A DNA stretch of 32,786 bases from a virus, in IMG/VR virus record IMGVR_UViG_3300024520_000308, positions 1-32,786 of that record; one strand, given 5' to 3'. The notes beneath the pieces were generated by a model. That model worked only from the letters and a program-made list of their open reading frames with translations, made no database searches and was not told the DNA's origin. Of this stretch, positions 2 through 26,033 are shown one piece after another (the stretch's first letter is position 1; every line of letters begins with the position of its first letter). A program made the translations under genes and the position numbers.

Positions 2-730
2 AAAGACGAGGGAACTGTTTGGTTAAATCTTGGGGACTCTTATGCGAGCAATCACTACACAGGAACTAGAGATTCAGATACAGGGTGGAAACATGGGGAG
101 CTGTCACAAGGACATCAAGCGAGAGCGGGTGGTGCGGGTGGCATATATAAAGTGAAAGACCTTATGGGAATCCCGTGGATGGTTGCCCTTGCTTTAAGGG
201 CGGATGGTTGGTATCTAAGACAAGACATTATATGGCACAAACCTAATCCAATGCCTGAAAGCGTTCAAGACAGATGCACCAAAGCACATGAATACATCTT
301 CTTACTTACCAAACAAAGAAATTACTATTATGATCACGAAGCAATTAAAGTGCCTGTAAAACAAGATTGGGGAACAAGGGATAGAACCGAAGGAAAGTAT
401 CACAATGAAGGAACAGGACTGTCTCCGCATACAGGATTAGAAGATTCTTACGAGAGTGCAAACAAGCGATCTGTTTGGACTGTCACCACAAAACCATTTA
501 AAGGTGCACACTTTGCTGTATTTCCGCCTGATCTAATAGAACCATGCGTTCTTGCGGGCTGTCCTAAAGATGGAACTGTTCTTGATCCTTTCGGGGGTGC
601 GGGTACAACTGGCTTAGTTGCTGACCGAAATGGTCGTAATGCCATATTGATTGAACTCAACGATGAATATGCTGAGATGGCTAGAGATCGACTCTATAAT
701 GATGCTCCACTTTTCGTGGATGTAGAATAA
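2..730 (+). CDS. DNA methyltransferase, beta-class N4-cytosine/N6-adenine type (5' truncated)
   Basis: This enzyme should transfer a methyl group from S-adenosylmethionine to an adenine or cytosine amino group in phage or host DNA. The frame is open from base 2, so the gene starts before the window; an internal GTG at 152 is only an apparent start, because the preceding residues (WLNLGDSY, then a Gly-rich stretch) already belong to the family. Visible motifs are DLMGIPW, then WYLRQDIIWHKPNPMPES with KAHEYIFLLTK, and near the C-terminus LDPFGGAGTTG, the SAM-binding motif I. Motif I lying C-terminal is the beta-class order. The catalytic (D/S)PPY motif must lie upstream, outside the window. No restriction partner is seen. 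It is the only plus-strand gene here and ends convergently with the structural operon. The specificity cannot be read. Confidence 0.9.
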   Translation, partial: KDEGTVWLNLGDSYASNHYTGTRDSDTGWKHGELSQGHQARAGGAGGIYKVKDLMGIPWMVALALRADGWYLRQDIIWHKPNPMPESVQDRCTKAHEYIFLLTKQRNYYYDHEAIKVPVKQDWGTRDRTEGKYHNEGTGLSPHTGLEDSYESANKRSVWTVTTKPFKGAHFAVFPPDLIEPCVLAGCPKDGTVLDPFGGAGTTGLVADRNGRNAILIELNDEYAEMARDRLYNDAPLFVDVE

Positions 731-1041
731 GCATCTATCAAATCTAAATTAGTGTTAGTTTCTGATGTGTCAGAATGTGACGCTTGTATAAATATTTTCA
801 AAACCAGAATCCTGCTTGCCAGAAAAATATTTTCATTGCCGGCTTCGGCCCGAGAAAAAAAATATTTTAGTTTACCGACTGCTGTATTATTGTTTTGCGA
901 AAACTCATAATGTAGCAGTAGGAATACTCGTATTGGTAGTCGTATTCGTGTTTGTGTTGGTAAATGGTTAAATATTTTTGTCGGGATACAACTGGTGCAA
1001 GGAATGTAGCAATAGGTTAGTCAAATATTGACTGGTCAAAA
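731..1041. other. 311 bp convergent intergenic region with repeats and hairpins
   Basis: This gap lies between the 3' ends of the methyltransferase and the leftward structural operon, and I see no convincing gene in it. It contains a 6 bp inverted repeat at 760-775 (TTCTGA/TCAGAA). It has AAATATTTT at 790-798, 825-833, 860-868 and 970-978. A small GC-rich hairpin (GGC-TTCG-GCC) sits at 841-850 and a long hairpin at 875-922. From 871 onward it carries short stretches nearly identical to parts of the fibre gene, the Asn/Thr-repeat gene and a small tail gene. See the findings for coordinates of each match. Confidence 0.8.
875..922. terminator. Long hairpin, possible terminator of the leftward operon
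   Basis: Arms 878-890 (ACTGCTGTATTAT) and 907-919 (ATAATGTAGCAGT) pair over 13 positions if one G-U and one U-G wobble are allowed; CC/GG adds two pairs beyond a mismatch. An inner 5 bp stem GTTTT/AAAAC (892-896 with 900-904) closes on a GCG loop. Read leftward, an eight-T run (862-855) follows about 12 nt after the stem, which is further than in a textbook intrinsic terminator. The position, downstream of the operon's last gene, fits termination. Confidence 0.35.
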
Positions 1042-1043
1042 TT
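1024..1043. promoter_or_regulatory. Near-palindrome overlapping the operon's last stop codon
   Basis: A 9 bp arm AATATTGAC, spacer TG and arm GTCAAAATT make an imperfect palindrome (one mismatch). It matches 12497-12516 at 19 of 20 positions, and that second copy is a perfect palindrome. Its last two bases lie in the TAA stop of the giant protein gene. It could be a protein-binding site; a short RNA hairpin is also possible. Confidence 0.3.
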
Positions 1044-7061: not shown

Positions 7062-8170
7062 TGCGGTCTACCGCCTCCCATGCCTTGATAAAGTCCCAGA
7101 GCACCAAGCCCTGCACCTAATGTTTGTTGAAATAAACCGGGTCGTTGTGCATAACTGCTAACAGTTTGACTTGGTTGTAAGTTAAGCCCACGAATAATAT
7201 TACTCTGAAACCCAATTTGTTGTTGTGGATAACCTTGTTGTCTAAGGAAGTCCTCATATCCAATATCAAGTCCAGCTTGTCTAAAGCCTCGTCTTTGACC
7301 ACCGACACCACCAAGAGCACCGATTCTTTCAAGTGCCATTTGTTGTGCTTGTGGTGCAAACCCACCTAATAGTTGTGCGGCACTTAACTGTTGTCCTTCT
7401 TGTGCCATTCTGGATGCTCGATCTCTTTCAAATTGTTCTTGTGCTGATTGATATCCAGACTGCAATCCTTGTGTTTGTATATTGCTTAGGTTTCTAAGCA
7501 AGTCTCTATTAAGATTAGATTCAACAATGCCTTCTCTATAGCCACCCAATGCGCCTTGTGAAGCTGCATCCAAACCTATACTAGATCGTTGAATGTCGGC
7601 ATCTCTTATTGCTTGTTGTTTAGCAATATCAGTAACGCCTTGTTGGTAAGGAGACATATATCTTTCCATTGGAGACTGATATCTCGGTCTTGGATAATAA
7701 GGTCTTTGAGGACTTAATCCTCTTAGCCCAAATGATTGCATTTGCATTGGGTCTTGTCTAAAGCCTCTTTCTCCGCCATAGATCATTGATGGTCTTTGTT
7801 GTTGAAATCCACCATACATGGGTTGCATTGGTTGTTGAAACCCGCCATATATAGGTTCTCTTGGCTGTTGAAAACCTGTGAATGGCTCAAAGGGTCTGCC
7901 TTGTGAAAGCTGAGATGCCGTTTGCTCTGCTTGTCTTTGAGCAAAAGGTGTCCCTTGTCTAGCAAGGTTTCTTGTCATACCAAAAGCCTGTTGCTCTTCT
8001 GGAGCAAATTCTGCTAAACGCTGACTTGGGTAAGTCGCATAGGGTTGCAGGCTTTCTGCTTCTCCTCTTGAGAGCAGACGACTGTAATAAGGTTTTGCCT
8101 CTGCAGGAAATTGTGTTTGTGTTACTGTCTGTTCTACTGGTTGACTAGAGCCACCGCTACTTCCGCCCAT
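7058..8170 (-). CDS. Gln/Arg-rich structural (tail) protein (370 aa)
   Basis: Putative tail-associated virion protein. It opens with a Gly/Ser-rich leader, then QTQFPAEAKPYYSRLLSRGE and RLAEFAPEEQQAFG, a pattern I recall from tail proteins of marine podovirus-like genomes. The middle holds repeats of GGFQQPxxPxYGGFQQ. A conserved helical block follows (YMSPYQQGVTDIAKQQAIRDAD, GLDAASQGALGGYREGIVES, NLSNIQTQGLQSGYQSAQEQ) with heptad-like Leu/Gln spacing. The C-terminus is Gly-rich (LGAGLGALGLYQGMGGG). No catalytic motif is visible. It overlaps the downstream 611 aa gene by 4 nt, implying coupled translation. Confidence 0.72.
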   Translation of the reverse strand: MGGSSGGSSQPVEQTVTQTQFPAEAKPYYSRLLSRGEAESLQPYATYPSQRLAEFAPEEQQAFGMTRNLARQGTPFAQRQAEQTASQLSQGRPFEPFTGFQQPREPIYGGFQQPMQPMYGGFQQQRPSMIYGGERGFRQDPMQMQSFGLRGLSPQRPYYPRPRYQSPMERYMSPYQQGVTDIAKQQAIRDADIQRSSIGLDAASQGALGGYREGIVESNLNRDLLRNLSNIQTQGLQSGYQSAQEQFERDRASRMAQEGQQLSAAQLLGGFAPQAQQMALERIGALGGVGGQRRGFRQAGLDIGYEDFLRQQGYPQQQIGFQSNIIRGLNLQPSQTVSSYAQRPGLFQQTLGAGLGALGLYQGMGGGRPQ

Positions 8171-8173
8171 TTA

Positions 8174-8626
8174 TTACTCCTGTATTCTAACTTCAAAAAA
8201 GGTGGCATGTTTTCTCCACCCCATGTTCTTAAACCAATTCCAGAAACCAGTTCTACCGATTCCTTCTATACCATCATATCCATTTTTTTTAGCAAAATGA
8301 CCCAACATATCTAAGCCATCTTCTAACCACCAGTCCATTTTAATGCCTGCAATATGATCTATGTGTAACATTCTCAATCCTGTTGGATATTCTTTTAAGA
8401 AAGTAACACTGCATCCTATGATCTCAAGATTAGATGTATCATAAACTATCCACATTTGACAACGACCAGAATCAATGTCTCTATAGACATCATCAATGGT
8501 AACACGACCACCGCTTCTTTTAACTGACCTTCTTAATAGTTTTGCACACTCATCCCAGCATTTATCTAATATTTCTGGGTGAACCATTGACCATTCTAGT
8601 TCATGTTTTAAAGCGGGTTGATTCAT
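8174..8626 (-). CDS. GNAT-like acetyltransferase-fold protein (150 aa)
   Basis: Small protein of GNAT-like pattern. An N-terminal helical part is followed by strands (CQMWIVYD, LEIIGCSVTFLKEY), a beta strand LRMLHIDHIAGI, an acidic helix, and a C-terminal GFWNWFKNMGWRKHATFFEVRI resembling the usual GNAT ending. The acetyl-CoA loop (Q/R-x-x-G-x-G/A) is not clear, so activity is uncertain. Similar small GNAT-like proteins occur among podovirus tail and internal virion genes; T7 gp13 lies in a comparable place. Its ATG overlaps the stop of the upstream 591 aa gene as ATGA. It may be a virion-assembly protein rather than an enzyme. Confidence 0.6.
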   Translation of the reverse strand: MNQPALKHELEWSMVHPEILDKCWDECAKLLRRSVKRSGGRVTIDDVYRDIDSGRCQMWIVYDTSNLEIIGCSVTFLKEYPTGLRMLHIDHIAGIKMDWWLEDGLDMLGHFAKKNGYDGIEGIGRTGFWNWFKNMGWRKHATFFEVRIQE

Positions 8627-10398
8627 ACTGGCATTACCTGTCTGCTATCAATGGGTTCTGCTTGTTTTATTGTTCCTGTTTTAGCCATACGAGTTCTATC
8701 CAACATTCCATCTAGTTTTCTTGAACCCTCTTCAGAATTGCCATCTCCTAATTGAGAAACCACATCTGCTGGAACTATATATTCACCCGGTGATGCTGCT
8801 ATTCTATTTTGATTTCCAGCAACGCCTTGAACAAAGTCATCCATTCCACCGCCAAACCCTTCTATCATTCCTTGTGTTTGTGTTTGACCATCAGGATTTA
8901 ATACTTGTTCTCTCAAAGACATAAAGGCTTCCTGTCCATACAGCCCAATAAACTGATTAATAACAGCATCTGCTGTTTCTTGGTCTGGAGCCATTCCTTG
9001 AATAACCATAATTGCTGCTTGTATAAGCTGTTCATTTCCTTCAGTCATCATGCCATCATCTAATCCAGCAATGCCTTGACCCTCTTGATATCGAATGTCT
9101 CCACCTTCAGCAAAGGTTAATTGATTATCAAAAGTATTATCAATTTGTGGAGTGTTTAATCCTTGTAATAAAGATTGTAATCCTCCTAGTTGTGTACCTA
9201 ATCCACTTAATTGACCAGACAAATCAGAAAATTGTTGTGAATAGTTAGGGGTTTCATAAGTAGGCATTTGGAAATTACCAAACATATCAGTTAGTCCTCC
9301 TAACTGAGATGATAAATTAGAAAACTGTTGATTGTAATCAGGAGTTTCATATGTTGGCATTTGAAAGTTTCCAAATATATCGGTCAAATTACCAATGCCT
9401 TGTTGCAATCCTTGAAACTGACCAGAATAATCAGGCAAATCATAAGTAGGAAAGTCAATTTGACCAGCAAGATTGCTCGCTAACTGATTATAATCAAAGT
9501 CAGGAACCTCGTATGTTGGCATTTGGAAATTACTAAACTGATCTGTTAGTCCTCCTAAACCTTGTTGTAAAGACTGAAGCTGATCAGAGTAATCAGGCAT
9601 TTGAAAATCAGGCATTTGAAACTGAGATTCACCAAAATCAGGAATATTTATTTTATTAGCCAAAAGATCATAATCTATTACAGGTTGCTGAAATGTGTTT
9701 TGGTTTTGAAATAGGTTTGATATATCAAGCCCGCCAGCAGTTGTATCACCAAGATTTACTCCACTAAACAAACCTTCCAATCCCGGCAAACCACCAATAC
9801 CACCAATACCACCAAAATTTATAGGGGGCATAGTAGGTGGAGTTATTCCATATGGGTATTGTCCCATTGTTGAAGCAGGAGGATTTGATGTTGGAAAATA
9901 ATTAAACTCAGCATCAATACCCGGTCTATATCCAACAGGAGGAGCTTCTGGAACTCTTGCTTGTGTTGGAACTATATTTGGATTATTAAAATTTGGAAAG
10001 CCAAAGTTATAACCACCATAATTATAGTTATCATATGGACTCATCATTGTAGAACGATTAGGAGCCATTCTTGATTGATTTTGGTTTAACAATGGTTGAA
10101 AAAAATTATTCGTATTAGGAGTGTATGTATAATCTTTTGGAGGTAAACCTACATTTGGAGGTAAACCTACATTTCTGTTTCTGCCTACATTTCTCTCTCC
10201 CTGACCATACATAGGATTTTCTGGTCCAATAAACATTCGATCAGGACCGTCATATCGTTGCATATTGCCTTGATCATCTGTATAAAATGGATCAAAACGA
10301 ATTTCTTGTGGGATATTTGGATTATTAAAAAAGTCAGCAGGAGGCGTAGGAACAATTTGTCCATCAAGCATCATTGGTTGTCTATTTTTTTTAGCCAT
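8623..10398 (-). CDS. Repeat-containing tail protein with GEYIVPADVVSQLGDG module (591 aa)
   Basis: Probable elongated tail or ejection-complex protein. The first ~200 residues are Asn/Pro/Tyr-rich and low complexity, including a tandem NVGLPP pair. Residues about 260-410 carry roughly 31 aa repeats built from FQMPTYETPDY followed by an amphipathic QQFSNLSSQLGGLTDMFGN helix. After AEGGDIRYQEGQGIAGL comes a C-terminal module with SPGEYIVPADVVSQLGDGNS and RKLDGMLDRTR, which I recall at the C-termini of many marine phage tail proteins. It overlaps the next upstream gene by one base (TAATG) and the GNAT-like gene by four (ATGA). The function is not known from sequence. Confidence 0.75.
   Translation of the reverse strand: MAKKNRQPMMLDGQIVPTPPADFFNNPNIPQEIRFDPFYTDDQGNMQRYDGPDRMFIGPENPMYGQGERNVGRNRNVGLPPNVGLPPKDYTYTPNTNNFFQPLLNQNQSRMAPNRSTMMSPYDNYNYGGYNFGFPNFNNPNIVPTQARVPEAPPVGYRPGIDAEFNYFPTSNPPASTMGQYPYGITPPTMPPINFGGIGGIGGLPGLEGLFSGVNLGDTTAGGLDISNLFQNQNTFQQPVIDYDLLANKINIPDFGESQFQMPDFQMPDYSDQLQSLQQGLGGLTDQFSNFQMPTYEVPDFDYNQLASNLAGQIDFPTYDLPDYSGQFQGLQQGIGNLTDIFGNFQMPTYETPDYNQQFSNLSSQLGGLTDMFGNFQMPTYETPNYSQQFSDLSGQLSGLGTQLGGLQSLLQGLNTPQIDNTFDNQLTFAEGGDIRYQEGQGIAGLDDGMMTEGNEQLIQAAIMVIQGMAPDQETADAVINQFIGLYGQEAFMSLREQVLNPDGQTQTQGMIEGFGGGMDDFVQGVAGNQNRIAASPGEYIVPADVVSQLGDGNSEEGSRKLDGMLDRTRMAKTGTIKQAEPIDSRQVMPV
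9170..9622 (-). repeat. ~31 aa protein repeats within the 591 aa tail protein
   Basis: About four to five units of FQMPxYExPDY plus an amphipathic Leu/Gln-rich helix, each near 31 residues (about 93 bp); one unit carries an inserted degenerate half-copy with FPTYDLPDY. Adjacent units are very similar at the protein level and partly diverged in DNA. Confidence 0.75.
10136..10171. repeat. Tandem 18 bp direct repeat
   Basis: Two adjacent identical copies of TTTGGAGGTAAACCTACA encode the doubled NVGLPP motif of the 591 aa protein on the minus strand. This looks like slippage or recent duplication. Confidence 0.8.
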
Positions 10399-12035: not shown

Positions 12036-12371
12036 CTAGTCGTTACTGGTTTCGCAACCAAATAAATTAAAACTCATGTCTACAGCACTTGTGTAGACCT
12101 TTAAAACATCTGTCTGATTAAGTGTTATACCTATTACAATTGTTAGGGAATCATTAGCCGCAACTGATTTGTCATAGTATAAATATTGTTTATCATCAGC
12201 TCCTGCTCCAGCAACATGAACGCTTAACCTAAATGTTATAGCAGAACCTGTTCTGTTTGCTGCTACCACAGAACTAATTGTGGTCATTACTTTGTCAGGG
12301 ACAGTATATAAAGTCGTAGTAGTTGTTGCTGATGGATCAACCTGTCCTAAAACTTTTAATGTATCAGCCAC
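12036..12371 (-). CDS. Small virion structural protein (111 aa), GTG start
   Basis: A beta-rich protein with Thr-rich N-terminus (VLGQVDPSATTTTTLYTVP), SSVVAANRTGSAITFRLSV, and NDSLTIVIGITLNQTDVLKV. I recall this as a common small protein beside tail genes of marine phages, likely a tail or fibre accessory. The start is GTG at 12371, overlapping the upstream gene by 8 nt, with GGGAG just upstream as ribosome-binding site. The exact role is unknown. Confidence 0.7.
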   Translation of the reverse strand: MADTLKVLGQVDPSATTTTTLYTVPDKVMTTISSVVAANRTGSAITFRLSVHVAGAGADDKQYLYYDKSVAANDSLTIVIGITLNQTDVLKVYTSAVDMSFNLFGCETSND

Positions 12372-12567
12372 CAGATGCTCCCATTAATAAAAACTGATGC
12401 CTTCTTACAGACAAAGAAGAAGGTTTGTTTTGTAATCTGTTTGCATTTCCAATGTCATTATTTATATCAAGTATTGCACCTTCAATAGTTGATCTTAATA
12501 TTGACTGGTCAATATTTGAGTATTCTGTAGGAGCAATAGGTAAAGGTATTGATGTTTTCTCAGCCAT
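12364..12567 (-). CDS. Small conserved tail-region protein (67 aa)
   Basis: A short protein opening MAEKTSIPLPIAPTEYSNID, with a helical centre (QSILRSTIEGAILDINNDIG) and a basic C-terminal part ending LLMGASGG. Proteins starting with an S(I/V)PLPIAPxEY pattern are common in this position in marine phage genomes, so I take it as real although short. It overlaps its upstream neighbour by one base (TAATG) and its downstream neighbour by 8. The perfect palindrome 12497-12516 lies inside it and encodes NIDQSI. No function can be assigned. Confidence 0.65.
   Translation of the reverse strand: MAEKTSIPLPIAPTEYSNIDQSILRSTIEGAILDINNDIGNANRLQNKPSSLSVRRHQFLLMGASGG
12497..12516. repeat. Perfect palindrome inside the 67 aa gene, second copy at 1024-1043
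   Basis: Arms AATATTGAC and GTCAATATT flank a TG spacer, giving a perfect 9 bp dyad within coding sequence. The copy at the end of the operon differs at one position. It could be an operator-like binding site or a recombination target. Confidence 0.45.
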
Positions 12568-15432: not shown

Positions 15433-15798
15433 TTAATTTGCTAGTGGGTTATCGTTTTTGTTCTTTAGGCTTTGCACATCATCATACATAGAGTCAATGC
15501 TTGAGTTTATTCCTGCAATGCTTGTTTGCATGGCAACAATGTCATTCTTAATCGGACTTAAATCTTGTGTCTCAACATTTAATGATTTAATTTGTTCGCC
15601 AACAGCAACTACATTTTTGTCCAATGCCGTAACTTGATCTCCAAGTGCATCAATCTCATTGATATATCGTGTCATTTTAGATTCAAGATTTTCTATACGA
15701 TTAACATATGTTGCACCTGTATAACCGAAACCAGCCAAAGTGCTAACAATACCAGCAAGAGCTATAATTTGAGTTGTTTTATTTTGAAACCAATCCAT
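15433..15798 (-). CDS. Membrane-anchored coiled-coil protein (121 aa)
   Basis: A single hydrophobic N-terminal segment (IIALAGIVSTLAGFGYTGAT) is followed by about 85 residues of heptad-like helix (VNRIENLESKMTRYINEIDA, VTALDKNVVAVGEQIKSL, SIAGINSSIDSMYDDVQSLK). This topology is like an i-spanin or a scaffold for the neighbouring membrane proteins. There is no lipobox. It overlaps neither neighbour but is separated from the next gene by one base. A spanin role is one possibility among several. Confidence 0.55.
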   Translation of the reverse strand: MDWFQNKTTQIIALAGIVSTLAGFGYTGATYVNRIENLESKMTRYINEIDALGDQVTALDKNVVAVGEQIKSLNVETQDLSPIKNDIVAMQTSIAGINSSIDSMYDDVQSLKNKNDNPLAN

Positions 15799-15806
15799 AT
15801 ACCTTC

Positions 15807-16121
15807 CTATAAAATTTTAGTAACTTTTCTACGATCTGGCATTACTGCACCACATCCTTTTGCAATAAAACCACCTTTAGCTTTTCTGTGTGGTCTTACT
15901 TTTTTAGCAATTCTTTTAGGTTGTTTAGAATGTTGTCTACCTTTTTTAGTATCTTCTCTTTTCTTTCTAGTAGTAGAAGCATATTCAGAAGAACTTAAAG
16001 ACTTTATAGCGCTTTCTGGTAAATATCTTTCTCCAGTATCAGCAGACTTTTTGCCAGATTTTGTTCTCCATTTTTGTTTAGTCCATTTCTTTAAAGACTG
16101 TTGAGACTTTGCAAGCGCCAT
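15807..16121 (-). CDS. Very basic small protein with GCGAVM C-terminal tail (104 aa)
   Basis: A Lys/Arg-rich protein. The N-terminal part (LAKSQQSLKKWTKQKWRTKS, TGERYLPESAIKSLSSSEYA) matches a small domain I recall as frequent in marine phages (DUF5872-like). The C-terminus ends GGFIAKGCGAVMPDRRKVTK, a tail motif also recurring in such genomes. The ATG overlaps the previous stop as TAATG and has a strong GGAGG about 9 nt upstream. Its charge suggests nucleic-acid binding or association with packaged DNA, which is inference. Confidence 0.72.
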   Translation of the reverse strand: MALAKSQQSLKKWTKQKWRTKSGKKSADTGERYLPESAIKSLSSSEYASTTRKKREDTKKGRQHSKQPKRIAKKVRPHRKAKGGFIAKGCGAVMPDRRKVTKIL

Positions 16122-16627: not shown

Positions 16628-16789
16628 TTATCTTCCAACTTTTTTCATTGCTTTTTTATGTGCTTGTGTAAAAGTTAAAGGACTCCTACTTCTTGTCATA
16701 AGATTTGTCATTTCTTTCATATGTTTAGAAGTATGATGTTTCTTATGTCTTTGCATTGCGTTTTTTTGTCTTGTAGTTAATTTTTTCAT
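16628..16789 (-). CDS. Small His/Lys-rich protein (53 aa), short gene
   Basis: From ATG at 16789 to TAA at 16628 the reading is MKKLTTRQKNAMQRHKKHHT, SKHMKEMTNLMTRSRSPLTF, TQAHKKAMKKVGR. The RHxxHHTxKHMxxM ... FTxAHKxAMKxVG pattern is familiar from marine phage genomes. It begins in an ATGA overlap with the stop of the 796 aa gene and ends 3 nt before the DUF6321-like gene, so the operon spacing supports it. It carries one HH pair and many Lys residues. Function unknown. Confidence 0.75.
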   Translation of the reverse strand: MKKLTTRQKNAMQRHKKHHTSKHMKEMTNLMTRSRSPLTFTQAHKKAMKKVGR

Positions 16790-19176
16790 AAATTTGGTTG
16801 CATATTTATTAACTTATTTGCACTGTTTAAGCTTTCTGCATACATTCCCATAAAAGCATTGTTGTTATCTGGTATAGATACATTAGCATAAATGTCTTTT
16901 GCCTCATACCAAGTTGGAAGTTCTGGTATTTGAACTTGAGTATAGTCATTAAATCCTTGAACATACCCCATATATGCAATTAATTGGGACTCATCTGCAT
17001 ACTCACCTGTTTCTTGTTGTTGCTGTTCTAACTGCTCTTGTTGATCTTCTATATTTTGAGCAACAATTTGATCAGCAATTAAATCGGCTTCAGAAGTAGG
17101 CATTTCAGACATTGCTGTATTAATTTCTAACTCCATTGAGCCAACTGCTGTATTTTGTGAACCACTAGTATTTGCATCACTTTGACCAACTACTACATTT
17201 TGTGAGCCAGTAGTATTACTTGAAGCCCCTGTATTTGTTGAAGCATTAGAAACAACAGTTGTTGAATTGCCAACTGCACTATTATTACCACCCATAGTAT
17301 TTGATGCACTTTCGCCAACAGAAGCATTATTACCACCTACTTCAACATTGCTAGAACTCATTGATAAAACCTGTTGAGTCTGTATTGCAGAACTTGCTAC
17401 TTGTGCAGAAATACTGGGCGAATTACTCGTGCTTATACCGCCTCCTGATGCTGAACTAGCTACTGCTGTACTCGTAGGGTTAGAAACGCCACCAGAAGCC
17501 ACAGAAGAAGCATAAGAGCCTCCTGACGATATAGATGTACCAGTGGCTTGTGCAGATGTTCCAGCAGTTGTACCGCTTACACTATTACTTGCTGCTCTAA
17601 TAGAGTCTGCTACAACATTTAATTGTTTTGCTTTTTTGTTGTCTTTTTTGTCTTCGTTCTCTGCGACAACAAGGTCGATAGTTTCTTCTCTATCTTCGCT
17701 CTCTTCATCAATTGTTTCGTTATCTTCCAAGTCATTAAATTCTTCTTCATCAGACTCAGCAAGTTGTTCAAGTATTTCTTCACTTTCTTCATTTTCAATC
17801 CACTCCTCAATTTCTTCTATTGTTTCAAACTCAAGAAACTCAATTTCTTCTTCTTCTATATATTCTTCAAGATTTTCTTGATACTCAAAATGGTTTAATA
17901 AAACATCTTCTAATACAGGAAGGTTATAGTTTGTTTCATAGTATTCTTCTACTAATAATATTTCTTCATATACCTGTTCAATATAAGGCTCTTCTTCAAT
18001 ATAACTTAAAGGAATAAATGTTTCTTCAGGCAATAAATCAAATTCTTCTACAAAAGGCTCAAGGTATTCTTCTTCAAAATACAGTGTTTCTTCGTAATAC
18101 AGTTCTTCTTCTACATATTCTTCAAAATAAAACTCATCTTCATAATGCACTATCCCCTGTAACTCAGTAGTGTATAAAGTGCTTTCTTCAAAGTAATAAT
18201 CTTCTTCTTGAAAGGGGTCATAATATCCATACTGATCGTTTTGATCTTCGTCATAACCAAACATATCGTCTTGATAATAAGTATCTTCAACAAATGTTTC
18301 GACCATATACCCAGCACAAGTTGGCGAATATTGTGCATCCAACGAGCATTCATAATCAAATAAATCATCCCAATAGTTAGGACACTGAGTAGAATACAAT
18401 CCATCTAAATCACATTGTTGATTTAAAAAAGCTGCTTGATAGCCAGTACATGCGGTATTGTTTAAAGGATTACTGCAATCCAATCCGTTTCCAGAGCCAA
18501 CACCATATAAGCTACCCCCACTTTCTAACAAAGTATTAAAAGATGTGCTGTTCCAATTTGTATTAACACAAGTGCCTGCAACATTTGTTGAGCCTGTACT
18601 GCACTCATCGTGATACAAGTAAGTGTATGATTCGCTTGAGCTTCCCTGTTCACCGATCAATACATCGTGATTAATAATGTTTAATCCGCCATAACGAAAC
18701 TCAAAACTGTCGTTGGATTTCCAAAGTATTACTTCAAATGAATTATCAGTGTTACCCCGATTGTATTCTCGTAAGTTGTACCATCCAAATACAGTCTTAT
18801 CTGTAAAATTTCTAGCCAACACGCTAGAACCATTGTCTCGTATTAGGTCAGTCCAAAAAGGATAAAGCGTATATGTATGTTGTCCTGCCAAAGGATCAGG
18901 TGTGTAATCATTACAATAACTTCCTGTCGACTTAAAGTGTAGACAACCATTTGTTGCCATTCGTGCTGATGTAAAATCTTCGCCATAAAAAGTAAATGTA
19001 AAATCTAGGTTAAAAGCAGAAGAAACCGAATCATCTCCAACGCCCATATTGTTAGAAGTAGCTATATAGTTTGTTTTTAAATCAATAAGAGATTGATTTG
19101 CTTCGTAAATATACCCTGCATTTAAGGTAGGTATAAATAAAACAAAAGCTAAACTAACTGCCCTTATCAAACTCAC
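16786..19176 (-). CDS. Secreted nidogen-like, Glu/Tyr-rich surface protein (796 aa)
   Basis: A Sec signal peptide (SLIRAVSLAFVLFIPTLNA, cleavage before GYIYE) implies export from the infected host or assembly outside the cytoplasm. Residues ~55-200 look like a NIDO (nidogen-type) domain: FNLDFTFTFYGEDFTSARMA, NGCLHF, LYPFWTDLIRDNGS, VFGWYNLREYNR, SFEVILW and NHDVLIGEQG. Several cysteines (GNGLDCSNPLNNTACTGY, SPTCAGYM) could form disulphides. Residues ~300-510 are extremely Glu/Tyr-rich. A Ser/Ala/Gly-rich stretch follows, including SQNTAVGS units like those of the fibre gene. The end is more ordered (ELPTWYEAKDIYANVSIPDN). The start is GTG, overlapping the upstream gene by 23 nt. I recall similar proteins in marine phages; the role is unknown. 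Confidence 0.75.
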   Translation of the reverse strand: MSLIRAVSLAFVLFIPTLNAGYIYEANQSLIDLKTNYIATSNNMGVGDDSVSSAFNLDFTFTFYGEDFTSARMATNGCLHFKSTGSYCNDYTPDPLAGQHTYTLYPFWTDLIRDNGSSVLARNFTDKTVFGWYNLREYNRGNTDNSFEVILWKSNDSFEFRYGGLNIINHDVLIGEQGSSSESYTYLYHDECSTGSTNVAGTCVNTNWNSTSFNTLLESGGSLYGVGSGNGLDCSNPLNNTACTGYQAAFLNQQCDLDGLYSTQCPNYWDDLFDYECSLDAQYSPTCAGYMVETFVEDTYYQDDMFGYDEDQNDQYGYYDPFQEEDYYFEESTLYTTELQGIVHYEDEFYFEEYVEEELYYEETLYFEEEYLEPFVEEFDLLPEETFIPLSYIEEEPYIEQVYEEILLVEEYYETNYNLPVLEDVLLNHFEYQENLEEYIEEEEIEFLEFETIEEIEEWIENEESEEILEQLAESDEEEFNDLEDNETIDEESEDREETIDLVVAENEDKKDNKKAKQLNVVADSIRAASNSVSGTTAGTSAQATGTSISSGGSYASSVASGGVSNPTSTAVASSASGGGISTSNSPSISAQVASSAIQTQQVLSMSSSNVEVGGNNASVGESASNTMGGNNSAVGNSTTVVSNASTNTGASSNTTGSQNVVVGQSDANTSGSQNTAVGSMELEINTAMSEMPTSEADLIADQIVAQNIEDQQEQLEQQQQETGEYADESQLIAYMGYVQGFNDYTQVQIPELPTWYEAKDIYANVSIPDNNNAFMGMYAESLNSANKLINMQPNL

Positions 19177-20341
19177 GCTTACAAGTTAGTCTTGATTTGT
19201 TTTGTCCAGAAGAATTTTCAGTCCTAGAACATTTAGAAACATAACTGGCTTTTGCTTCTTTGTAATCTGGTCGGTCTTTAGGATTAGCAGCCCATGATGC
19301 TCTAGCTTCTTCGCCTATCTTCCCTTCATATGGGCAAGGTGTGCCAGCCATATACATAGCACTAAATACTCTTACATCTTGGCACATAATAGCAACTGCT
19401 GCGACTTTCATGCCCATATCGTATAAATATTTTCCTAGTTTTAGTCGTTCACAGTTTGTATCTCTAACAGTTCTTCCAGCCGACAAACCAAATACTTGTC
19501 CTTGAAATGCACCAGATCGACCTACAGTACAAAGGTCTTGGCTATAGCTCATTATAGAAGGAGCAATCGCAGAAGCAGGCGGTGCTTTAGTCGTGATATT
19601 TTGATTGATAGTTTGTTCAGACTTTGACTCATTAATGTTTCGATTTGTGTTGTCAGAAGTGCTGTTATTTTCATTAACGTTTTTATTGTTGGTCTGCACA
19701 TTTGAATTTGAGTTCGACTCGTTTTTATTTACATTTGTGTTGTTAGAAGTCGATGTCGAATTATTGTTATTGTTATTCGTGTTTGTGTTTGTATTCGTAC
19801 TTGTCGAAGTGTTGTTGTTGTTATTTGTATTAGTCGATGTACTAGTATTGTTATTGTTATTGGTATTAGTATTGGTGCTTGTCGAAGTATTTGTATTTGT
19901 ATTATTGTTTGTATTGCTCGATGTACTTGTATTGTTATTTGTATTTGTTGCAGTCGATGTTGATGTATTGCTATTGGTATTATTATTAGTAGCGGTTGAG
20001 CTATTAGTATTATTATTAGTATTTGTATTAGTATTTGTGTTAGTTCCAGTTGACGTACTGGTATTAGTATTGGTGTTGTTGTTGGTGTTGTTGTTTGTAT
20101 TGGTGTTTGTACCAGTAGAAGTTGTTGTAGTCGTATTGGTATTGTTATTAGTATTGCTGTTAGTGTTTGTATTTGTATTGGTGTTGGTATTTGTGTTTGT
20201 ATTGGTCGTAGTCGTAGCCGATGTTGTTGTCATTGAATTTTCTTCACAATACTGAGAACCAGCAGTACAGTCGCCAGTTTGATCTGCCTGTGCATCATTT
20301 ACAAACAAAAATATAGCAAGCAATGGTAAATATTTTTTCAT
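19154..20341 (-). CDS. Secreted Asn/Thr-repeat protein with Cys-containing C-terminal domain (395 aa)
   Basis: The N-terminus (KKYLPLLAIFLFVNDAQADQ) is a Sec signal peptide with likely cleavage after AQA. After a short Cys-containing segment comes a long low-complexity Asn/Thr/Ser region (residues ~37-250), mostly alternating NT pairs. The C-terminal ~140 residues are globular: SQDLCTVGRSGAFQGQVFGL, SAGRTVRDTNCERLKLGK, MGMKVAAVAIMCQDVRVFSA and MAGTPCPYEGKIGEEA. This core is one I recall in marine phages beside the nidogen-like protein. The ATG overlaps the upstream nuclease stop as ATGA, and the end overlaps the next exported protein by 23 nt, suggesting the two are made together. Function unknown; a surface or host-envelope role is inferred. 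Confidence 0.75.
   Translation of the reverse strand: MKKYLPLLAIFLFVNDAQADQTGDCTAGSQYCEENSMTTTSATTTTNTNTNTNTNTNTNTNSNTNNNTNTTTTTSTGTNTNTNNNTNNNTNTNTSTSTGTNTNTNTNTNNNTNSSTATNNNTNSNTSTSTATNTNNNTSTSSNTNNNTNTNTSTSTNTNTNNNNNTSTSTNTNNNNNTSTSTNTNTNTNNNNNNSTSTSNNTNVNKNESNSNSNVQTNNKNVNENNSTSDNTNRNINESKSEQTINQNITTKAPPASAIAPSIMSYSQDLCTVGRSGAFQGQVFGLSAGRTVRDTNCERLKLGKYLYDMGMKVAAVAIMCQDVRVFSAMYMAGTPCPYEGKIGEEARASWAANPKDRPDYKEAKASYVSKCSRTENSSGQNKSRLTCKREFDKGS
19735..20233 (-). repeat. Asn/Thr-codon low-complexity repeat
   Basis: About 500 bp encode runs of NT, NN and TS dipeptides on the minus strand. Both Asn codons and several Thr codons are mixed irregularly, so the protein is repetitive while the DNA is only loosely so. 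The plus-strand frame over it is an artefact giving V/L/F runs. Confidence 0.85.
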
Positions 20342-22021: not shown

Positions 22022-25000
22022 TTATTTGTCACACTTATCATGTGATTTAGATTTTAATTCCTCGACTTCTGCCGAGAGTTCTTGGATTGCTTTAATGAGT
22101 GGAAACACAAACATACTTTCGGATATTTGTTGTTTACCATCAGGTAATTCATCCCAGCCTTCAAAGTCGTTAATACCAGCTTTGTCTAGCGCTTGTTTAA
22201 TATCTTGAGCAATCATACCATGATGAATTTTATCATCTATCGGTTCTGTTTTACTTTTATCATGACTTACCCATTCTTTAGGATATTCGCTTGGCGATCT
22301 AAATTTATAGGTTGCTGGTTTTAAATCATTAATAAACTCTAAGCCTAATGTTGAAAGTTCAATATCCTTTTTAGCTCTTTCATCAGATGAATGTGTCCAT
22401 GTTGCATTTGTATTATAATTATTATAAATATGAGAACTTGAATTACCGATATGTACTCTAGTATTTGTTGTTCCATAAACAGAAGAACCAATTACAATTT
22501 GACCTTGACCATCGGCAGCGCCTATTCTTGTATCATAACCTATGGTTGTATTGTTCGAGCCACTACCTGTCGTACCTTGCGCATTTTTACCAACTGCTGT
22601 ATTGTTTGCTCCAGTCGTATTAGAACTAAGTGCATCTAATCCCACAGCAGTATTATTACCCCCAGTTGTAGTTGCTGTCATCGCAGAGTGTCCAACTGCT
22701 GTGTTGTTTGCAGCCGTTGTTTGTGCATCAAGGCAATAAGCACCGATAGCAACTGCACCATCACCTGTGGTGTTAGCTGACATCGCTTGGTCTCCTATTG
22801 CTACATTTCTGTTTGCAGTTGTATTGGCATCTAATGATTGATAACCGATAGCAACATTACCTATACCTGTGGTGTTTGCTCCTAAAGCAGATACTCCTAT
22901 ACCTGTATTCGCTTCTCCTGTCGTAAGAGCAAGTAAACTATTTGAACCTACAGCAGTATTACCTGACCCAGTTGTTTCAGCTTTTAATGATCTATAACCT
23001 ACTGCCGTGCTATGAACTCCACCACTATTTGTGGTGTTGTGAGTGTACAAAGCCTCATAACCAACTGCCGTCATGTATTTTCCAGTGGTGTTTGTATATA
23101 AAGCATCTGTTCCGATAGCAGTATTGTTAGCACCTGTGGTATTTCCTAGCATTGCATTTGTGCCAACAGCAACAAGAGAATCTGCTGTGGTGTTTGCAGT
23201 AAGTGCGGATTTACCAATAGCAACATTTGATGAACCCGTAGTGTTTGCTGCTAAAGTACCAGAACCAACAGCGGTGTTGTTTGCGCCAGCATTGTAATAA
23301 AGGGCTTGATTGCCAACCCCAGTGTTGTTAGAAGCAGTTGTAACTGTATATAAAGCCTCTTTACCCACACCCACGTTTGCTGCACCTGTGGTATTTGCTG
23401 TTAAAGCTGCTGAACCAACTGCTACATTACCACTTGCTGTGGTATTTGCTGCTAATGCACTTTTGCCCACTGCGACATTAGATGCACCTGTGGTGTTTGC
23501 TGTTAAAGCCAACCTTCCTACTGCGGTGTTAAAACTGGCAGTAGTGTTTGCTCCTAATGCTCCCGAACCAAGTCCTGTGTTACTTACACCAGTTGTGTTT
23601 GCGTCTAATGCCACACTACCCACTGCCACATTTTCGTCACCTGTGGTGTTTGCTATCAAAGCACTGTAGCCGACTGCTGTGTTATTTGATGCGGTGGTAT
23701 TTACTCCTAAAGCAGAAGCACCTACAGCAGTGTTTGCTGTTCCTGTGGTGTTTGCTCCTAAAGTTTCATTTCCTAAAGCTGTGTTCGCATTAGCCGTTGT
23801 ATTGGCATCTAGTGCTAAATAACCCACCGCTACGTTGTATGCTCCTGTGGTGTTTGCTGCTAAAGCTGAATAACCCACTGCGGTATTGTTATCGGCTGTG
23901 GTGTTTTCTTTTAAAGCAAGATTACCAACAGATACATTGTATTGACCAGTAGTGTTAAATTTCATCCCATCCACTCCAATAGCGGTATTATTTGCACCTG
24001 TCGTATTGGTTGTAAGTGAATTTTTCCCCACTGCCGTATTATTTTCTGCCGTTGTATTGGCATCTAAAGCTAATGCTCCTACTGCTGTATTTGCTGCTCC
24101 TGTGGTGTTTGCTGTTAAAGCTGAATAACCCACTGCGGTATTGTTATTCGGTGTGGTATTAGCGTATAAAGCACCACGACCCATTGCCGTATTGTTGGAG
24201 CCAGTAGTTGTTGAACCAAGTGCTGCGTGACCCACTGCCGTATTGTCAGCCCCAGTGGTATTGGCTTCTAGTGAGCCTTGTCCAACTGCCGTGTTTTCGG
24301 AAGCTGTGGTATTGGCTTGTAGTGAAGCACGACCTATTGCAACATTGTCTGTTCCTGTGGTGTTTGCTGCTAAAGCCGATTTCCCAACCGCTACGTTGTT
24401 TGCAGCCGTGGTGTTAGAGTCTAGTGCGCCTTGACCTACCGCTACATTAGCGGAACCTGTCGTGTTTAAAAGCAGTGCATCTGTTCCAATGGCGGTGTTA
24501 TTACTAGCAGTGGTATTTGCTCCGAGAGCGTTGTTTCCAACCGCGACATTACTTGCGCCTGTGGTTGTGGCATCTAGTGCTGCTGAACCTACCGCAGTGT
24601 TATAAGAGCCTGTAGTTAGAGCAGTTCCTGCTGTATCTCCCACTGCTACATTATCTGTAGCTGTTGTAAACGCATCAAGAGCGTTCTCCCCTATGGCAAC
24701 ATTGTTTGTTCCTGTGGTCATGGCTGTACCAAGTGCGCCAGAACCCAGTCCAACATTGCCTGTACCGCCTGTCATATCCAGTACGTCAGTGACTGCAGCA
24801 CCTGCTCCAGCACCATCGGTGACAATCATTTTAATTCCGCCATTCGGAATGACGACATTTGCGCCTGTGCCTTGAGATATGGTTACTTGATAACCCGCGT
24901 TGTTTTGAATCACCCAAGTCTTACTGACTGTGTTGGGTGCGAGTGTTACTGTATTGGTTGCGGTAATTGATCCTGTCAGCGTTAGAGCAAAGGCTCTGGC

Positions 25001-25199: not shown

Positions 25200-26033
25200 T
25201 TAAGCTGCCTCATCTTTCCAGTTTGGCGACTGTGATGGACTAACATTTGAATAAGATGGTGATTGACTTGCACCAGCATCTGTCCAATTTGGTGTTTGAT
25301 CAGGAGCAACTGGACTCCAAACCAATAATCCTCCTAGTTTACTTGTTCCTACAATTCCTGTAATTGAAATGCTTACACTAATACTAGCTGTTAGCTCTCC
25401 AACCTGACCTGTTCCAGCTAGTCCTGTTATTGAAATAATATTATCACTAACAGTGCTAATTGTTCCTAATGCACTTGTAGCAGCAATCCCTGTTGGATAA
25501 ACATTGGCATCACAAGTAACGGTTTCATCGCCTTGAGAAACAGTCGATGCTGTACCGCTAACACCAACAAGAGCTACACCATTTGCAACAACTGTGCCTA
25601 TTGCGCCAGTACCAGCTACTCCTGTTTCGCTGACATTTGCATCGGCACTAACAGTTTCAGTACCTAAAGCACTTGTACCAGCTACTCCTGTAACAGAAAG
25701 ATTAGCAACTCCAGTTACAGTTAAGCTATTTACTGCTCCTGTTCCTGCTACTCCTGTTTCGCTAACATTCGCATCAGCAGATATACTTAATGAGCCTAGT
25801 GCACTTGTTCCAGCGACACCTGTCTCTGTAACAATTGATGCACCAGTAGCAGTTAAACTACCGACAGCACCTGTAGCCGCAATGCCTGTCTCTACGACAT
25901 TCGCATCACAACTAACGGTTTCTGTTCCTAGTGCAGTTGTTCCCGCAACGCCTGTTACATTAACTGTAACATTAACGACTGCAGGTTCACCCCAAGGACC
26001 AGCACCCCATGTGGACCGACCCCAACCAGACAT
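25200..26033 (-). CDS. Repeat-built tail fibre or fibre-adaptor protein (277 aa)
   Basis: The N-terminus SGWGRSTWGAGPWGEP is Trp/Gly-rich and is followed by about ten repeats of 21-22 residues with consensus TGVAGTSALGTETVSADANVS. This is a beta-rich solenoid-like pattern. The C-terminus contains DQTPNWTDAG, SQSPSYSNVS and SQSPNWKDEAA, three copies of a (Q/S)(T/S)P(N/S)(W/Y) motif. I recall the same architecture beside marine phage fibre genes. No signal peptide or catalytic motif is seen. It lies 7 nt after the 143 aa gene and 19 nt before the long fibre gene, so a role in the same fibre assembly is inferred. Confidence 0.78.
   Translation of the reverse strand: MSGWGRSTWGAGPWGEPAVVNVTVNVTGVAGTTALGTETVSCDANVVETGIAATGAVGSLTATGASIVTETGVAGTSALGSLSISADANVSETGVAGTGAVNSLTVTGVANLSVTGVAGTSALGTETVSADANVSETGVAGTGAIGTVVANGVALVGVSGTASTVSQGDETVTCDANVYPTGIAATSALGTISTVSDNIISITGLAGTGQVGELTASISVSISITGIVGTSKLGGLLVWSPVAPDQTPNWTDAGASQSPSYSNVSPSQSPNWKDEAA
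25332..25955 (-). repeat. ~10 tandem 63-66 bp units in the 277 aa protein
   Basis: Units alternate TGVAGTSALG and TGVAGTGAVG cores, separated by Ala/Asp/Val-rich strands (VSADANVSE). One unit is degenerate (VGVSGTASTVSQG). The repeats differ from those of the long fibre gene. Confidence 0.8.

Follow-up and report, generated by a model that had tools for sequence, protein, structure and literature searches.

Phage modules recombine at boundary or linker sequences, and where tail regions are invertible or variable, remnants of tail-fibre genes occur close to the fibre loci. Cluster A mycobacteriophages such as L5 and Bxb1 carry stoperators, in which one phage-specific site is repeated genome-wide and mostly in one orientation (PMC6550527), and in the LUZ24-like phage tf a predicted bidirectional terminator separates converging transcription units (PMC3517423). 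We analysed a 32,786-nucleotide IMG/VR record of an aquatic phage, referred to throughout as the window, whose gene map leaves 731-1041 as a non-coding gap between convergent genes, since a methyltransferase (MTase) gene on the plus strand ends at 730 and the structural genes, encoded on the minus strand, extend from the right of the window down to 1042. The gap is made up of AAATATTTT boxes, a palindrome at its end, and DNA like that of the fibre and Asn/Thr-repeat genes lying between the boxes on both strands (Table 1). The explanation that we consider best, and to which we give about an even chance, is that a control island holding fossil fibre DNA sits in the gap, where the late operon ends and the MTase-end transcription unit meets it; one block of this DNA has probably been kept for use.

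The late neighbour of the gap, on the minus strand, encodes a 1393-aa LPD38 protein. One of the related records, G001 (60,681 bp), matches window positions 419-549 at both of its ends, with ~131 bp repeated there, and is thus probably a complete circular map of ~60.55 kb. A Pfam scan recognised a LexA DNA-binding domain in a 116-aa protein of G001 (18879-19229), at the start of the late region. Three distant named relatives were reached through one structural protein: phage DSL-LC04, Roseobacter phage CRP-901 and Pelagibacter phage HTVC027P. Neither CRP-901 nor DSL-LC04 has a gap of this kind; the late gene there touches or overlaps the opposing one. Rfam holds no known RNA family for the gap. 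Tandem repeats are present in the late genes of the window, with units of ~93 bp in a 591-aa gene (9229-9621) and 66 bp in a 277-aa gene (25326-25986).

Table 1. Features of the gap and related sites; positions are those of the window unless a record is named.
Feature	Position	Strand	Basis or remark
Non-coding gap between MTase (+) and 1393-aa LPD38 protein (-)	731-1041	.	Without a frame conserved across nine relatives
AAATATTTT box 1	790-798	.	Sequence
AAAATATTTT box 2, 35 bp after box 1	824-833	.	Sequence
G+C-rich stem-loop GCCG-GCTT-CGGC between boxes	838-849	.	Sequence; replaced in relatives
AAAATATTTT box 3, 35 bp after box 2	859-868	.	Sequence
Fibre-repeat piece NNTAVGK	873-893	-	8.2 bits, against a best of 5.0 in 40 shuffled nine-gap sets
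Fibre-repeat piece HNVAVG, inverted relative to 873-893	906-923	+	4.4 bits, alone within the shuffled range
Asn/Thr-repeat gene-like piece TNTNTNTTTNT	926-962	-	Absent in G002, G004, G008, G014
AAATATTTT box 4; four-gamete pattern across it in relatives	970-978	.	Alignment of relatives
Fibre-repeat piece DTTGARNVAIG, conserved block	985-1017	+	TTGA[R/W]NVAIG in all nine phages
Palindromic operator-like site PAL, AATTTTGACCAGTCAATATT on late strand	1024-1043	-	Overlaps late-gene end
Second window copy of the palindrome, inside 67-aa ORF 12364-12567	12497-12516	-	Sequence
Early control region, AAAATATTTT boxes and palindromes	G004 7428-7589; G008 8230-8445; G011 15458-15974	.	After canonical-looking terminator in G004, G008

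An earlier note on this DNA had listed four short matches between the gap and distant tail genes, together with translations of 985-1017, 905-962 and 873-893. All four matches are present at the coordinates and on the strands it gave (871-888 with 22586-22603, 17/18; 943-962 with 19774-19793, 19/20, which includes the 16/16 first reported; 1003-1016 with 22807-22794, 14/14 on the opposite strand; and 1024-1039 with 12497-12512, 16/16, or 19/20 over 20 nt), and the three translations are correct. At a score of at least 14, 10 ungapped matches link the gap to the repeat genes. Shuffling it 500 times with dinucleotides kept gave 0.08 ± 0.28, none of the shuffles reaching as many, and 216 real segments of the same size from outside the tail genes gave at most 2 each. 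With the rest of the window the gap shares a single match of this score, where 0.23 are expected (p ~0.19), and it is the site at 1024. The excess over both shuffles and real segments indicates that two repeat genes are truly represented in the gap. Chance and low complexity are ruled out by the same controls as the source of the matches; the (NT)n piece at 926-962 is of low complexity, yet it too matches above shuffles. A third repeat gene (16786-19176) is matched only weakly. The proposal that three tail genes had contributed thus holds for two repeat genes, and a third tail-gene piece at 1024-1043 is rejected, as this site and 12497-12516 are copies of a dispersed palindrome.

A profile of the 23-residue fibre repeat, scanned on the corresponding gaps of nine related phages, gave 21 hits above 5 bits with a top score of 17.1. 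Over six records (G000, G001, G004, G008, G011 and G014), the profile found only the fibre or repeat genes and the gap, bar one weak 7.7-bit region in G008. A limited search of the literature turned up no account of fibre scraps in a comparable gap.

We compared the gap across these nine phages, several of which are close to one another. All have the same kind of patchwork, with the interior replaced piece by piece: G000, G001, G003 and G005 carry the Asn/Thr piece, an extra fibre-like piece is found in G002, G004 and G014, and the G+C-rich stem is replaced in relatives. The suggestion that the locus is a mosaic and not one decayed gene is borne out, as fibre-like pieces lie on both strands with a piece of the other gene between them, and the nine phages have different versions and no intact gene. 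A single decayed fibre gene, in one orientation and collinear with the fibre, does not fit this arrangement. The mosaic is real, and the pieces in it are old. G011 has only a distant relative of the late protein, and another gene takes the place of the convergent one. Several relatives align with the window as far as 1044, from where they have a divergent late LPD38 gene.

The last fibre-like piece and the palindrome (988-1043) hardly vary, with 50 of 56 columns invariant in all nine phages, G011 included, while the interior pieces differ. One scrap that stays almost unchanged in nine relatives is probably used for something, although recent exchange could be a partial cause of the invariance. 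Exchange near this boundary does happen, as the MTase of G008 is 92-95% identical to that of the window and its late gene 60-70%. Across box 4, left and right alleles occur among the relatives in every one of the four possible combinations, a four-gamete pattern that suggests recombination, although it could also arise by repeated gain or loss of the Asn/Thr piece.

The palindrome, AATATTGACCAGTCAATATT, of which 1024-1043 is one copy, is a 20-bp dyad asymmetric at its two central bases only. It was seen throughout G001, G002, G004, G008, G011 and G014, at ~10-12 copies per long record versus 0-1 for a reversed control pattern, and was absent from the parts of DSL-LC04, CRP-901 and HTVC027P that were examined. 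Its copies take positions common to different phages, mostly between early genes, and a few are inside genes. By eye, most sites in G001, G004 and G008 point the same way as transcription; each of these genomes has a single clear exception, and one site is flipped between G002 and G004. The dispersed palindrome looks like an operator system, one of which we found no report in the literature, and the 116-aa protein with the LexA_DNA_bind domain is a candidate for its binder. On the alignments, position 1044 is a module boundary right at the palindrome. The palindrome was also tried as a pointer to a host or prophage and gave a single match, in Konateibacter massiliensis, roughly the number expected by chance when a 20-mer is sought in 257 Gb, and this link was rejected.

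Four boxes lie in the gap, the first three at 35-bp spacing. In G001 18 boxes were counted, compared with 3.6 ± 2.0 in shuffles, and for 4 of 12 box sites a palindrome is no more than 150 bp away, where 0.66 are expected (p 0.04, in this one complete genome). Boxes and palindromes also cluster in an early control region of G001, G002, G004 and G008, behind a canonical-looking terminator.

From these patterns we infer a sequence of events in which illegitimate recombination would have captured short pieces of the tail repeat genes long ago, and exchange between phages, at the boxes or close to them, would have reshuffled these. Where the late operon ends, a DNA-binding protein of the phage may sit on the palindrome and regulate transcription or stop it. 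The adjacent fibre-derived block would have been co-opted into that 3′-end element, and the remaining pieces would be mostly passive filler. A bolder form of this explanation, which we put forward tentatively as rather less than an even bet, is that a piece of fibre coding DNA, captured beside the dispersed operator, turned into a fixed non-coding control element where the late operon ends and was kept across otherwise divergent phages, and that the AAATATTTT boxes are the joints at which such pieces are swapped. If true, the gap would offer a clear example of coding DNA reused as a phage non-coding control element, and the relatives would show captured pieces in exchange. It also points to a dispersed operator-like system in 60-kb phages known here from metagenome records only.

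The strongest rival to the control island, for which we see perhaps one chance in a few, is a plain recombination scar, in which the tail-gene pieces are non-functional debris and the palindrome, perhaps with the boxes, is the only functional part. It is favoured by pieces in both orientations, two source genes, frameshifts and turnover between close relatives, and by the difference in identity between the MTase and the flanks, which indicates frequent recombination here. Debris should have drifted, however, and 988-1016 shows almost no variation across the nine phages, the distant G011 among them. A scar, one of the origins offered in the earlier note, agrees with where the pieces came from but is a poor fit to the strong conservation of 988-1043, the regular boxes and the operator-like site.

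Since the genes converge, and phage tf has a predicted bidirectional terminator at such a position (PMC3517423), the inverted NNTAVG arms and G+C-rich stems could instead form an array of stem-loop terminators acting in both directions on convergent transcription, a reading that we regard as unlikely. The arms form a strong stem in G000 (z -3.5) and G004 (z -4.7) but show hardly any pairing in G005, G002 and G014 (z +0.2 to -0.9), and a conserved hairpin was rejected on this range of -4.7 to +0.2 across relatives. No terminator stem with a T-run in either direction was found in 731-1041, nor any canonical promoter or terminator.

An antisense role, in which late-strand RNA of 985-1017 would bind fibre mRNA by base pairing and adjust how much fibre is made, appears more doubtful still, and the evidence for this suggestion of the earlier note is weak and mixed. 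The block is complementary to the coding repeat of the fibre at 14/14 and 25/31 positions, and the predicted duplex in G001 reaches -40.8 kcal/mol versus -28.6 ± 2.6 in shuffles, while that of the window (-33.5 versus -29.9 ± 2.4 kcal/mol) lies inside the shuffled range. Complementarity, moreover, follows from homology, the block and the fibre are on the same transcribed strand, and there is no specific fit to the phage's own fibre.

A donor cassette for exchange into the fibre repeats, also raised earlier, would account for pieces that match the repeat genes and differ between relatives, but is already disfavoured and in our view very improbable. The pieces are at most ~30 bp long and 80-94% alike to the best repeat, and the gap pieces match their own fibre no better than that of another phage (fibre genes compared in G000 and G001 only), which argues against an active donor. 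Domain scans of ten window proteins with PHROGs and of eight with Pfam recognised neither a recombinase nor a reverse transcriptase, and in a Pfam scan of ten early proteins of G001 no integrase was noted. Least probable of all is a translated micro-protein (MVKYF...TTGARNVAIG), which was rejected because frames and starts vary among relatives: the amino-acid motif is in all nine phages and a short ATG-TAG frame at 964-1020 exists in G000, G001, G003 and G005, but by inspection G002, G014 and G011 have no ATG, GTG or TTG upstream of KYF, the sole in-frame start in G008 lies inside the motif and the stop is lost, and no ribosome-binding site was seen in the sequence.

Set beside diversity-generating retroelements, which are marked by a reverse transcriptase and adenine-directed variation, the pieces in the gap are too short for a template repeat, and the scanned window proteins included no reverse transcriptase. 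Like tail-fibre remnants in variable tail regions, the gap holds partial fibre sequence outside an intact gene; unlike them, it lies ~19-22 kb from the repeat genes, its pieces are on both strands and much shorter, and no invertase or recombination sites were seen. As in module linkers, short repeats flank exchangeable pieces and breakpoints fall at gene junctions (1044 and box 4), although what is exchanged here are tiny non-coding scraps of tail genes and not whole modules. The position of the gap between convergent transcription units resembles that of the phage tf terminator, with boxes, a palindrome and fibre-derived pieces in place of a canonical terminator. As with the Cluster A stoperators, there are many dispersed copies of one site, mostly codirectional with transcription. 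In a stoperator system a phage repressor binds the sites and blocks elongation. The L5 stoperator is 13 bp and asymmetric, whereas the site here is a 20-bp near-perfect dyad in ~10-12 copies, the LexA-domain protein is a candidate binder only, and the early part of G001 that was examined had no integrase noted in it.
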